Shown here in pieces: positions 1 to 7,186 of a DNA stretch of 7,186 nucleotides. The stretch's first letter is position 1; each line of letters opens with the position of its first letter. The stretch lies in the NCBI GenBank assembly GCA_002084435.1, contig NBLG01000037.1, positions 1 through 7,186 of the forward strand. Reading direction: 5' to 3'. This DNA is from Tenericutes bacterium 4572_104. GTDB lineage: Bacteria; Bacillota_I; Bacilli_A; Izemoplasmatales; UBA5603. The notes below the pieces were generated by a model. It was not told where the DNA came from and did no database searches. It saw only the letters and a program-made list of their open reading frames with translations. The translations under genes and the position numbers were made by a program.

Positions 1-1224
1 TATACCAGTAAAGAAGAGATTGCTGGATTTAGTCATTTAGCTTATCGGAATGAAATTATTCAAAATGAATACAATATGAATATCCCAAGATATGTACAAT
101 CAATTGAAACGGATATAGCCCATGATGTTGATGCTCATCTGTTTGGTGGTATTCCAAAGGAAAATATAGATAAATTAAAGACTTTGCGTGAATTAGTACC
201 TGAAGTTTTAGCAGAAAATATTGAAGAGATTCGCCCTGGTTTCGTGGGCTTAAAAAACTCAATAAAAGAGATGACTGATATAGTACTAAAGCATGAAAGA
301 ATTTTATCTTTATCAAAAGAGTTAGAAATTAAAATCACTGATTATACCTCTAAATTTTGGAATGAGCTGAAAAGAGTAACGGTAGATTCTAATTTAGTAG
401 AGTTAGAAGAGACAATGTTAAATGAGATAAAGCAAATTTTAAAAGAGTTTGATCATCTTGATGTGTACACAGGATATCAGGTTATTGCTGAGATATGGAA
501 AAATTCATTAATTCATGATACGGAGCTTATTGCAAATGAAGGATTTTATACCGTTGCCCGCATGAGAGAACCAAAGATGGTTACCAAAGGAACAGGTAAA
601 AGCAAACGGGAAGAGCAAGACGGTTGGAATGGCAAAATAATACCAAATACATTAATCGCCCAGATGCTTTATGGTAAAGAGCAGCAGGAATTGGACAATA
701 AACGAAATAAAATCGGTGAACTGGAGATGGAACTTACAGATTTAGTGGAAGCTGCCAAGGTGGAAGATAGTGTAGAGTACGATGCCCTTTTTGATATAAT
801 AAAAAAAGATAAAGATGATGAACTGACTGATTCATTTGATAAAAGTGACTTGAAGTCTGAACTAAAGGGGATAGATAAGAAGTCTGAGCAGTATAAATGG
901 CTAAAAAAAGTAGATGATCTGATTGCTGAAAGTGCAATGTTATCTAAAGAACTGAAAATTGAAGAAAAAGAGCTGTGGGATGCAGTAGAAGAGAGAATAT
1001 TGGTTCTTACTGATGAAGAGATAGATAAGTTGATATTTCATAAATGGTTTGGAAAAACGGTAAATGATATTACCAGTTTAATAGATGTCTCGGTGAAGAG
1101 TGAACTAAATATTTTGCAAAAGTTAGAAGAGCGTTACGCAGATACATTAGATAGTATTGATGGACAAATTGAAAATTTGCTGGCCGATTTCGAGACACTC
1201 AAAGCTGATTTGGTGGTGGGATAA
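1..1224 (+). CDS. hsdM: Type I R-M methyltransferase subunit HsdM, 3' part (5' end outside window)
   Basis: HsdM is the N6-adenine methyltransferase subunit of type I R-M enzymes; with HsdS it modifies the recognition site. The frame is open from base 1 and shows 407 residues. An ATG at 76 is internal, because homologous sequence runs through it. Codons 25-32 read NMNIPRYV, the conserved block (N-x-N-I-P-R-Y-V) that closes the HsdM methyltransferase domain. The SAM-binding and NPPF catalytic motifs must lie upstream and cannot be checked. About 370 further residues follow, rich in Lys, Glu and Leu and probably helical or coiled, with a basic patch near codons 195-204 (KGTGKSKRE). This is the long C-terminal extension seen in large HsdM proteins. 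The stop (1222-1224) overlaps an ATG by one base (TAATG), the usual coupling to hsdS, but here that hsdS start is broken. The last 33 codons are duplicated further downstream. Confidence 0.95.
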   Translation, partial: YTSKEEIAGFSHLAYRNEIIQNEYNMNIPRYVQSIETDIAHDVDAHLFGGIPKENIDKLKTLRELVPEVLAENIEEIRPGFVGLKNSIKEMTDIVLKHERILSLSKELEIKITDYTSKFWNELKRVTVDSNLVELEETMLNEIKQILKEFDHLDVYTGYQVIAEIWKNSLIHDTELIANEGFYTVARMREPKMVTKGTGKSKREEQDGWNGKIIPNTLIAQMLYGKEQQELDNKRNKIGELEMELTDLVEAAKVEDSVEYDALFDIIKKDKDDELTDSFDKSDLKSELKGIDKKSEQYKWLKKVDDLIAESAMLSKELKIEEKELWDAVEERILVLTDEEIDKLIFHKWFGKTVNDITSLIDVSVKSELNILQKLEERYADTLDSIDGQIENLLADFETLKADLVVG

Positions 1225-1288
1225 TGGCTGAGGTAAAAAAACTAGTACCAAAGAGAAGATTTAAAGAGTTTCAAAATGCAGAAGCTTG
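1125..1288 (+). repeat. Left copy of 164-bp direct repeat (hsdM tail / hsdS start)
   Basis: This stretch matches 2360-2523 at a constant offset of 1235 bases. By hand alignment I count 9 differences and no gaps (about 94-95% identity). It covers the last 33 codons of hsdM, the TAATG overlap and the first 21 codons of hsdS. Six of the nine differences cluster after the hsdS start, changing for example MAEVKKLVP to MAEVKKIIP. The divergence suggests two alleles were brought together, or an old duplication, rather than a very recent exact copy. Confidence 0.95.
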
Positions 1289-1289
1289 A
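1224..1289 (+). pseudogene. 5' remnant of hsdS, ended by TGA at codon 22
   Basis: The ATG overlaps the hsdM stop exactly as in an intact hsdM-hsdS pair. The 21 residues MAEVKKLVPKRRFKEFQNAE plus A match the N-terminus of the full HsdS starting at 2459. Where the intact gene has TGG (Trp22), this copy has TGA (1287-1289). Homology to hsdS ends there and sequence resembling the end of another hsdM begins. No target recognition domain follows, so it cannot act as a specificity subunit. It may still be translated as a short peptide through coupling to hsdM. Confidence 0.85.
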
Positions 1290-1448
1290 AAACGGTTTAA
1301 ACTTCTTGATAATGTTGTTGGTGTTGAAATAAACTTTAATAAAGTTTTGTATAAACCTGAAGTTTTGAGACCATTGGAAATTATAACAAAAGAACTTTCA
1401 GACTTGGATAAAGAATTAAAAAATTTAGAATCAAAGCTTGGTATATAA
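1290..1448 (+). pseudogene. C-terminal tail of a second, different HsdM
   Basis: In the same frame as the broken hsdS start, after its TGA, this stretch encodes 52 residues. They include GVEINFNKVLYKPEVLRP and then a Leu/Glu/Lys-rich heptad-like helix ending ELKNLESKLGI. From family knowledge, many HsdM proteins of the shorter class end with a (V/I)EINFN(K/R)-x-FY-x-P-x-x-LRP-x-E-I block followed by a short coiled coil. The resident HsdM has no such ending. I therefore read it as the tail of hsdM from another operon, lacking its catalytic part. It stops at 1446-1448, one base before the ATG of the nuclease gene, which looks like the original donor spacing. The HsdM assignment is from memory of the motif and is moderately sure. 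Confidence 0.65.
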
Positions 1449-1449
1449 T

Positions 1450-2325
1450 ATGGATGATAATAAAATTATAGTTTCAAAAGAATACAAAGAGCTTTTAAAA
1501 AGTATTAAAGAGCAGATAAAAACAGCTCGGAATAAAGCTATTAGAAAAGTTAATAGTGGACTTATTGAGCTCTATTATTCAATTGGTCAGCAAATAGTAG
1601 AAAAACAGGAAAAATCAAGCTGGGGTGATGATTTAATAGGTCAGATAGAAAAAGATATAAAAAGAGAACTACCTGATATAACAGGGTTTTCCCGAACTAA
1701 TCTTTTTTATATGAAAAAATTATTGTCTCTTAAATTATATAAGAGACAAGGAAAAGCATTAACTAATTTTGATAAAACAATTAATTGTGAAAGTATCGAA
1801 TTATTAAAAGATAGTTTTAAAGAGAGTTATATCTTGGATTTTTTACAGCTTTCCGAGCAAGCTAAAGAAAAAGAACTGGAAAAATCTTTAGTACAGAATA
1901 TTACCCGTTTTCTAATGGAGATGGGGAAAGGTTTTGCTTTTGTAGGTAAGCAGTATAAGTTGACTGTTGGTGATAAAGAGTTCTTTATTGATCTTCTCTT
2001 TTATAACTATATCCTCAAGAGATTTGTGATAGTAGAACTTAAAACCACAGAGTTTAAACCTGAACATATAGGACAGATAGGATTTTATATAACAGCTATT
2101 GATAGAGATATTAAAACAGACTCCGATAAACCTACCATTGGTCTGATAATCTGCAAAACAAAAAATGATACTATTGTTGAATATGCTTTAAGTAATAGTA
2201 ATCAACCTACAGGTGTTGCAGAGTATAAATTGCGTTCCGAACTACCAGAAGATATTGCGAATTACCTGCCAAATGCTGAAGATATGCAAAAAGTATTAGA
2301 AACTAACTCCGAGGAATCTAAATGA
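1450..2325 (+). CDS. DUF1016/YhcG-type PD-(D/E)XK nuclease domain protein, internally shortened
   Basis: The product has 291 residues from ATG 1450, chosen over an in-frame TTG at 1438. The ATG sits one base after the upstream stop and gives the usual N-terminus; neither start has a clear Shine-Dalgarno. Residues ~10-90 resemble the DUF1016 N-terminal domain (N-R-x-L-I-x-L-Y-x-I-G, then W-G-D-D-L-I, then GFSRTNLFYM). Residues ~97-280 resemble the nuclease domain: KRQGKALTNF, LEMGKGFAFVGKQY, then FFIDLLFYN with Asp181 and VELKTTEF with Glu196-x-Lys198, the expected catalytic set. Family members as I recall them have roughly 65-70 more residues, including a PWGHN-like block, between FYM and the YKRQGKA segment. 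Those are absent here, in frame. Such genes often sit inside type I R-M operons, but their biochemical role is not settled. The catalytic residues are present, yet the gap may have inactivated the protein. Confidence 0.85.
   Translation: MDDNKIIVSKEYKELLKSIKEQIKTARNKAIRKVNSGLIELYYSIGQQIVEKQEKSSWGDDLIGQIEKDIKRELPDITGFSRTNLFYMKKLLSLKLYKRQGKALTNFDKTINCESIELLKDSFKESYILDFLQLSEQAKEKELEKSLVQNITRFLMEMGKGFAFVGKQYKLTVGDKEFFIDLLFYNYILKRFVIVELKTTEFKPEHIGQIGFYITAIDRDIKTDSDKPTIGLIICKTKNDTIVEYALSNSNQPTGVAEYKLRSELPEDIANYLPNAEDMQKVLETNSEESK
1725..1747. repeat. Inverted repeat at the apparent deletion point in the nuclease gene
   Basis: Arms GTCTCTTA (1725-1732) and TAAGAGAC (1740-1747) are perfectly complementary over 8 bp around a 7-base AT-only centre. 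They fall in codons 92-100, where the protein jumps from the DUF1016 N-terminal domain to the YKRQGKA segment. A hairpin here could be a scar of, or a cause of, the deletion. It is inside a coding region and is not followed by a T-run, so it is not a good terminator. Confidence 0.75.
2311..2316 (+). promoter_or_regulatory. Shine-Dalgarno site for the chimeric mini-ORF
   Basis: GAGGAA lies 5 bases before ATG 2322, inside the last codons of the nuclease gene. This is the best ribosome-binding site between hsdM and hsdR apart from that of hsdR itself. It presumably served the donor operon's hsdS start. Confidence 0.65.
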
Positions 2326-2459
2326 AATTTGAAAGATATGAAAAGTATAAAGATGTCGAAGAAGAGCGTTACGCAGATACATTAGATAGTATTGATGGAC
2401 AAATTGAAAATTTGCTGGCTGATTTCGAGACACTCAAAGATGATTTGGTGGTGGGATAA
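2322..2459 (+). CDS. 45-residue chimeric ORF: foreign HsdS start fused to the resident HsdM tail
   Basis: The ORF begins with an ATG overlapping the nuclease stop (ATGA at 2322-2325), preceded by GAGGAA at 5-base spacing. The first 11 residues, MKFERYEKYKD, resemble the start of another HsdS family that usually continues with S-G-(V/I)-E-W. After a two-residue junction (VE) the frame enters EERYADTLDSIDGQ and continues to VVG and stop, a copy of the last ~32 residues of HsdM. The TAA (2457-2459) overlaps the hsdS ATG by one base. The peptide has no catalytic content. I infer that its value, if any, is to carry ribosomes into hsdS by translational coupling, since hsdS has only a weak GGTGG-type site of its own. 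It could also be a pure recombination scar. Confidence 0.6.
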   Translation: MKFERYEKYKDVEEERYADTLDSIDGQIENLLADFETLKDDLVVG

Positions 2460-2523
2460 TGGCTGAGGTAAAAAAAATAATACCGAAGAGAAGGTTTAAA
2501 GAATTTCAAAATGGTGAAGCTTG
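2360..2523 (+). repeat. Right copy of 164-bp direct repeat (hsdM tail / hsdS start)
   Basis: This is the partner of 1125-1288, at an offset of 1235 bases. Here it leads into the intact hsdS, with TGG at the codon where the left copy has TGA. Crossing over anywhere before base 1287 of the left copy would rebuild a normal hsdM-hsdS junction and delete the nuclease insert. Confidence 0.95.
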
Positions 2524-7092: not shown

Positions 7093-7186
7093 TCAAGGTT
7101 TAGCTTTTAATGTTTTTTCTAAATTATGCAAACAACAATATAACACCCATTGAATATTAACTTTTTTCTTACTACGCAGAGTAAAA
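7093..7186 (-). CDS. Transposase C-terminus, partial
   Basis: Read from the right edge on the minus strand, 30 residues precede a TGA at 7095-7093. They begin FTLRSKKKVNIQWVLYCCLH and end in NLEKTLKAKP. The pattern (F-x-x-R-x-x-x-K-V-x-x-x-W-x-L-x-x-x-x-H-N-L-x-K) is typical of the extreme C-terminus of IS1182/IS4-IS5-type DDE transposases. The catalytic DDE residues would be outside the window, so completeness cannot be judged. Assignment rests on this short motif only. Confidence 0.55.
   Translation of the reverse strand, partial: FTLRSKKKVNIQWVLYCCLHNLEKTLKAKP

Follow-up and report, generated by a model that had tools for sequence, protein, structure and literature searches.

Additional genes may be housed between hsdM and hsdS in restriction operons and in defence operons of other kinds. 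How can such a gene settle there while its neighbours remain whole? The question is raised by contig NBLG01000037.1 of Tenericutes bacterium 4572_104, whose whole length of 7186 bp was analysed and is called the window here. Its resident type I restriction-modification operon comprises hsdM (of which the window has the 3′ part), hsdS and hsdR, each with its own domains according to Pfam, NCBIfam and PADLOC profiles. Between hsdM1 and hsdS1 lies a DUF1016/YhcG nuclease gene with the remains of foreign hsdM and hsdS genes (hsdM2 and hsdS2) on its two sides, and the whole block is bracketed by a direct repeat of the hsdM1/hsdS1 junction (Table 1). We found a general excess of direct repeats of host sequence on the flanks of DUF1016 genes. 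The explanation that we favour as the probable one is that DUF1016 is a one-gene mobile unit producing a long target duplication, and that the unit in the window was once part of an hsdM2-DUF1016-hsdS2 operon before it moved into the hsdM1/hsdS1 junction. Its way of moving and the history of the window are what we infer from the comparisons below.

The first-pass annotation of this DNA had reported that the junction sequence recurs with nine differences, and this was borne out. The two copies align without gaps, with 9 mismatches in 164 nt, and the repeat search extended the match to 177 nt at 92%. Copy 1 completes hsdM1, and copy 2 restores the start of hsdS1 with a TAATG overlap. Because hsdM1 and hsdS1 overlap, the repeat covers both a gene end and a gene start. 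Two mismatches fall in the 99 nt of hsdM and seven in the 65 nt of hsdS (Fisher test, P = 0.03). Besides the stop codon, the differences in the hsdS part are mostly silent and conservative, as they would be between two working alleles. The annotation had also considered a recent simple tandem duplication unlikely, and the mismatches together with the foreign block between the copies agree with that view. The 9-mer GAAGAGCGT stands at both ends of the 164-bp unit, suggesting that a short direct repeat served for the uptake of the new address. Only 0.02 occurrences of it are expected per window, with one of the first two copies being forced by the duplication.

The sequence between the copies has a G+C content of 28.9%, compared with 33.8-35.4% in the surrounding genes. 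The best protein match of the hsdM2 tail was the end of a 686-amino acid (aa) HsdM (69% identity over 98%), and 24 proteins were found at E <= 1 among 76 candidates. The tail had no NCBIfam match and no Pfam match above the cut-off (only BAR, E 0.13). DUF1016 starts one base past the hsdM2 stop, and its own stop overlaps the next start as ATGA. At that start, the putative hsdS2 stub MKFERYEKYKDVE (2322-2359) resembles the HsdS N-terminal motif of two Chitinophaga loci, L023 and L029. When this motif was used as a pattern, it had four matches in the first 80 residues of 2372 open stretches of the loci (L023, L029 and two in L074), at starts of hsdS or at a stub of such a start. The 45-aa open reading frame (ORF) holding the stub had no profile match above the cut-off, the stub being too short for a profile. 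The order hsdM-DUF1016-hsdS, proposed earlier as the contiguous form to look for in other genomes, is intact in L023 and L029 (Pfam) and also in L057, L082 and L457. The predicted donor core hsdM2-DUF1016-hsdS2 thus is located between two copies of the resident junction, as the annotation had claimed, with hsdM2 recognized by profile and hsdS2 by motif and position. The homologues that this claim called for were found for hsdM; for hsdS2 there was the likeness of the motif and no profile match. An alternative code (TGA = Trp), which would join the relic hsdS start to the hsdM2 tail, was rejected; hsdM, hsdS, hsdR and DUF1016 use TGG 23 times and TGA 0 times.

A bracket of this kind around a DUF1016 gene was first seen at L074, where several copies of an hsdS start surround DUF1016 and another ORF. 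In a survey, a DUF1016 gene was counted as bracketed if its two 400-bp flanks shared a direct repeat with a score of at least 20; the controls were the remaining ORFs of 250-500 aa of these loci. DUF1016 ORFs shorter than 250 aa, controls outside 250-500 aa and genes with a flank shorter than 150 nt were left out. Set 1 consisted of 86 loci found by similarity to the window protein and was the source of the bracket idea. Set 2, fetched after the idea had formed, serves as an independent test and consisted of 80 Bacteroidota loci, picked by rank and completeness from the matches listed (hits in 68 of 198 genomes). Set 3 consisted of Spirochaetota loci, among which L227 is the same locus as L002 of set 1; apart from it, no locus of set 2 or 3 matches set 1 at 95% over 500 nt. 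L189/L190 and L194/L195 (stretches shared at 95-97%) and L192/L207 (overlapping) were all kept in set 2. Many of these sequences were assembled from metagenomes or are drafts; the genomes behind L011, L013 and L015 are drafts from isolates, and L087 is a complete plasmid.

Among the pooled loci, 35 of 186 DUF1016 genes were bracketed, compared with 5 of 487 other ORFs (P = 4e-16). After merging orthologous sites and the doubly present locus by hand, the counts were 28/179 and 5/487 (P = 1e-12). The proportions were 20/83 against 1/370 in set 1 and 11/78 against 3/105 in set 2 (P = 0.009). The five positive controls were hsdS in L144 and L213, RhuM in L192 (Pfam), an ORF without Pfam hit in L074 and one in L236; the last, also without Pfam hit, is contained in the DUF1016 gene on the opposite strand, and the same repeat pair flanks both. 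The flanking repeats of DUF1016 genes are 23-215 bp long and 86-100% identical, with a spacing of 1,074-1,559 bp. The window scored in the same test with a repeat of 164 bp at 94.5%, a spacing of 1,235 bp and a unit of 1071 bp. Two routes had been proposed for the window, decay of tandem operons and an ad hoc recombination with an incoming allele. Both are possible, but neither is needed as a special event, because DUF1016 genes are generally enriched for flanking repeats.

We classified what is duplicated in 29 of the 35 cases. Eight repeats duplicate the start of the downstream gene (L008, L045, L047, L046 and L193 by rule; L053, L209 and L238 by eye) and nine the end of the upstream gene (L002, L057, L068, L074, L188, L174, L200, L151 and L236). 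In each of these 17 cases, one copy forms part of the open reading frame of the long gene, and what the other copy carries is a stub. The duplicated starts belong to an M24 peptidase of the pepP kind (L045 and L047), an S9 peptidase (L008) and hsdR-like genes (L046 and L053), with Pfam support for L045 and L008. In L002, which at 54% is one of the two nearest relatives in the genome collection, the end of an upstream MmeI-type restriction gene is repeated perfectly over 174 bp, with a unit of 1079 bp. In L188 (1495-4196, DUF1016 on the plus strand), two tandem DUF1016 genes occur with three copies of a 191-bp repeat.

These sites bear on the decay of tandem operons. Here an array hsdM1-hsdS1, hsdM2-DUF1016-hsdS2, hsdM1'-hsdS1'-hsdR would have lost its intervening parts by two deletions, or three with the one inside DUF1016. 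Both outer joints of the window are alike in form, an hsdS start running into another hsdM end, and none of the three joints shifts the reading frame, the first one having a stop codon. The allele-like divergence of the copies, by conservative and silent changes, would also follow. However, decay requires a full third operon, which none of the loci looked at shows. It leaves unexplained why the 164-bp unit starts and ends at the same 9-mer, and why a like bracket of DUF1016 exists outside restriction operons, at the peptidase site. We regard this history as quite unlikely.

The peptidase site also provides the empty counterpart. In L045 and L047, DUF1016 lies between two repeat copies at the peptidase gene. 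All 11 close relatives of L045 (L424-L434, 84-88% identity at this locus) are free of DUF1016 there and have one repeat copy. The left flank aligns up to and into the single copy in 10 of the 11, and in L430 the repeat alone aligns. Eighteen more distant loci (L435-L452) are DUF1016-free as well, with left flanks that barely align. The pepP-like peptidase site thus shows that DUF1016 can insert in a way that duplicates its target. Among 28 DUF1016-free loci of Flavobacterium, the local repeat occurs once in 25, twice in one (L290) and is absent from two. This evidence is weaker, because the repeated element lies between genes and might be an independent repeat. An empty site for L209 was looked for and not found as one piece, and no clean empty site was read out from the relatives of L053.

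In our explanation, DUF1016 units with 1.0-1.5 kb between their repeats would insert by gene ends, by gene starts or between genes. The landing sequence would be duplicated on both sides, and the neighbouring genes would remain whole. The unit of the window would have moved from between hsdM2 and hsdS2 into the hsdM1-hsdS1 overlap with a 164-bp target duplication, taking along stubs of the genes that had flanked it before. Through the fused 45-aa ORF, translation would continue into hsdS1, and the loss of 55 residues from the nuclease would have occurred during the move or later. As the mechanism, we prefer a small circle, consisting of the gene and one repeat copy, which would be released by recombination between the repeats and would re-integrate by a single crossover where the new host has a homologous stretch. 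Entry beside a new gene would be a rarer illegitimate join, and the reverse single crossover would mean loss of the unit. A single-crossover circle would lead to variable repeat lengths, to copies diverged as donor and recipient, and to tandem units such as those of L188. The fixed short duplications of transposases do not fit, because the repeat lengths vary. If single genes do enter in this way, operons would gain passengers without loss of function, there would be a simple footprint for finding such genes in any genome, and excised circles and reversible loss are predicted.

Alternatively, a one-off event at short homology, either a template switch or one-sided homologous plus illegitimate recombination, might have taken up a piece of a foreign operon with DUF1016 playing no part. 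The 9-mer at both ends of the duplicated unit would suit such an event. Two reports offer precedents: single crossover of partly degraded circular DNA gave duplications of 109-950 bp (PMC3240628), and similar proposed insertions leave gene remnants in Vibrio arrays of the type VI secretion system (T6SS) (PMC5361080). Yet a one-off event gives no reason why flanking repeats should be commoner around DUF1016 than around neighbouring genes, and we consider it unlikely.

Several observations weigh against the mobile unit. No circle, recombinase or activity was seen in this sequence analysis. In the window, the ends of the repeat fall on a 9-bp repeat of the host operon, an arrangement that a slippage-type event could also produce, with no mobile unit involved. 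By the test used, 151 of the 186 DUF1016 genes have no flanking repeat, and the difference in set 3 alone (4/25 against 1/12) is not significant. By the rule used, 12 of the 29 repeats that were classified involve no end or start of a gene. Among the occupied Flavobacterium genomes, only three of eight have two copies around the gene and five have one; the repeat there is intergenic, and the DUF1016-free L290 also has two copies. Genes of RhuM were bracketed as often as those of DUF1016 (5 of 30 loci), and one Mrr locus (1/25) was bracketed too.

Because RhuM shows the same footprint, it is not peculiar to the DUF1016 nuclease, and DUF1016 as its sole owner was rejected. Fic genes were bracketed in 0 of 26 loci. 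Four of 30 Fic loci and five of 30 Mrr loci had been left out of the test, and the difference between DUF1016 and Fic plus Mrr combined is significant (P = 0.007). From the translations, the rhuM brackets duplicate a gene end in L333 and L334 and a gene start in L341, and the genes beside rhuM in these loci read as peptidase-like and oxidoreductase-like. Both passenger families occur together in an Aeromonas plasmid operon, hsdM-DUF1016-hsdS-rhuM-hsdR (L457). In L192 (2289-3293, minus strand), a RhuM gene adjoins a DUF1016 gene, each with its own flanking direct repeats. A more tentative extension, on which we would not yet rely, is that DUF1016 and RhuM are minimal mobile units without a recombinase. 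A circle with a stub of a host gene would re-enter by host recombination and leave the neighbours working; the stub would act as an address, addresses would accumulate, and the hsdM2 and hsdS2 relics would be a travel record. If this is true, restriction loci would be favoured because they are themselves often exchanged.

The first-pass annotation had assumed that the locus acquires an accessory nuclease while hsdM, hsdS and hsdR are kept intact. The second part stood as far as the window reaches: the resident genes are open in it, and hsdM1 is known from its last 407 codons, its 5′ end falling outside. The gain of a nuclease was not supported, because the window DUF1016 is internally truncated. 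PF17761 and PF06250 are both above the cut-off, and positions 78-137 of PF17761 are unmatched. A protein of another contig, P0002, is 98% identical to the window protein where aligned and 55 residues longer. The absent piece holds the nearly invariant Q-I-P-W-H columns of the N-terminal domain, a highly conserved motif. The gap was found in none of the 54 other alignment rows (none with more than three gaps there) and in none of the 89 loci spanning that region. The PDDEXK core residues D181, E196 and K198, presumed to be catalytic, are kept. Structure models were weak outside the N-terminal helices, with a mean pLDDT (predicted local distance difference test) of 65.7 for P0002 and 59.9 for the window protein; in these models, four helices of the well-predicted region of P0002 lie in the absent piece. 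When the P0002 model was compared with PDB folds, no match reached E <= 0.001 (best 1.2e-3), and a PDB sequence search had no match either. Judged from its sequence, the window DUF1016 is probably a damaged, inactive passenger.

The comparison with P0002 also touches on a chimera of assembly or amplification in the metagenome. The window is a lone contig, and its DUF1016 looks mosaic, with four differences from P0002 in the first 91 residues and none in the last 199 (P = 0.009). Short repeats can seed chimeras, and the foreign parent sequences may have had shared stretches on their side. Against this, no repeat other than one of 9 nt was seen at the joints, the longest identical run common to both copies (60 nt) sits inside the repeat and is unable to make the foreign joints, and similar brackets exist in isolate genomes. 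We consider a chimera very unlikely.

In all five examined relatives of the resident system (Priestia L089, Exiguobacterium L098, Streptococcus L099 and L100, and viral contig L081), hsdM directly abuts hsdS and the junction is empty. For L081, hsdM and hsdS were named by place, size and end motifs, and hsdR by a 54% match. Relative to this direct arrangement, the window junction carries 1,235 extra bp. The identity between hsdM1 and HsdM of four plasmid systems is 46-50%, too distant for a base-level comparison at the window's own site. Among plasmids, searched at distant sensitivity, there was no close relative; 121 records have related restriction-modification genes, the longest match being 71% identity over 46% of the window. 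No near match came from 395 genomes belonging to the class of G006, where the lowest E-value went with 73% identity across 243 bp of DUF1016. In viral contigs, a single HsdR relative (54%) was found, and nothing matched DUF1016, hsdM or the junction pattern.

Table 1. Features of the window in order of position.
Feature	Coordinates	Strand	Evidence
hsdM1, 3′ part, resident	1..1224	+	PADLOC MTase_I PDLC03022, E 5.5e-99, profile 443-843/857
Direct repeat copy 1: end of hsdM1 and first hsdS1 codons	1125..1288	+	155/164 identical to 2360-2523
9-mer GAAGAGCGT at left end of repeat	1126..1134; again 2361-2369; 2525-2533 just beyond copy 2	+	Sequence match
Relic of the hsdS1 start (21 codons), ending in TGA; this codon is TGG in copy 2	1224..1289	+	Translation and codon comparison; resembles HsdS N-termini of relatives
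hsdM2 tail, last 52 codons of foreign hsdM and stop	1290..1448	+	PADLOC PDLC03029 positions 617-657/661, E 3e-7
DUF1016/YhcG (PDDEXK) gene, 291 aa, internal 55-residue loss at ~1728/1729	1450..2325	+	PF17761 and PF06250; alignment to P0002 and 13 others
45-aa fused ORF: putative hsdS2 start (2322-2359) in frame with hsdM1 tail copy; stop TAA overlaps hsdS1 ATG	2322..2459	+	ORF list, motif comparison
Direct repeat copy 2: hsdM1 tail stub and true hsdS1 start	2360..2523	+	Ungapped comparison with copy 1
hsdS1, resident, 421 aa	2459..3724	+	PF01420, E 1.9e-25; PADLOC Specificity_I, E 2.6e-85
hsdR, resident, 1028 aa	3743..6829	+	TIGR00348 above cut-off; PF18766, PF12008

Downstream of hsdR, the minus strand encodes at 7093-7186 the C-terminal part of a transposase matching DDE_Tnp_1_6 (E 3.3e-4, which does not reach the curated cut-off). 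Among the HsdS proteins, P0122, P0128 and P0129 (615-644 aa) apparently have three target-recognition domains. P0128 and P0129 seem to have the same three modules in opposite order, and P0123-P0125 to have the same domain twice, as if shuffled; all this was judged by eye. L074 (4052-6336) has four copies of the hsdS start (4052, 5278, 6120 and 6274) around DUF1016 and the ORF without Pfam hit, which resembles REP-associated transposases (repetitive extragenic palindromic). Hairpin repeats GTAGAGACGCGGCATGCCACGTCTCTAC and a 154-bp tandem step lie in the same stretch.

We found no mention of such brackets in titles and starts of abstracts on DUF1016/YhcG, RhuM and insertion between hsdM and hsdS, which covered few subscription journals and no preprints. 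With the DUF1016/YhcG PDDEXK nucleases (PADLOC PDC-S02, where PDC means phage defence candidate), the window gene shares both Pfam domains and the PDDEXK core residues. Its place between hsdM and hsdS matches L023, L029, L057, L082 and L457, but 55 residues are missing from its N-terminal domain. Free-standing homing endonucleases and mitochondrial mobile ORFs are also single nuclease genes between genes, with a neighbour partly duplicated, which is the likeness to DUF1016. In contrast to them, the proposed mobility of DUF1016 is read from sequence, its repeats vary over 23-215 bp, and RhuM, which is not known as a nuclease, shares the footprint. Insertion sequences likewise duplicate their target upon insertion, although their duplications are short and fixed, and no transposase was seen in the window unit. 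The only ORF longer than 51 aa within 1289-2359 is DUF1016, and a search limited to inverted repeats of at least 20 nt found none at the unit ends.

DUF1016 genes are carried on Rickettsia conjugative elements, according to two reports (PMC4316617, PMC6300072). Small circles inserted by single crossover during E. coli conjugation, with duplications of 109-950 bp in 14 sequenced clones (PMC3240628), resemble the mechanism that we prefer. Both combine foreign DNA with duplication of a homologous stretch, but a laboratory plasmid in E. coli was described there, whereas DUF1016 is a recurrent gene family in natural genomes. The orphan gene arrays of the Vibrio T6SS are similar in that insertion leaves remnants of displaced genes (PMC5361080). 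They replace effectors, whereas the neighbours of DUF1016 are kept whole by duplication.

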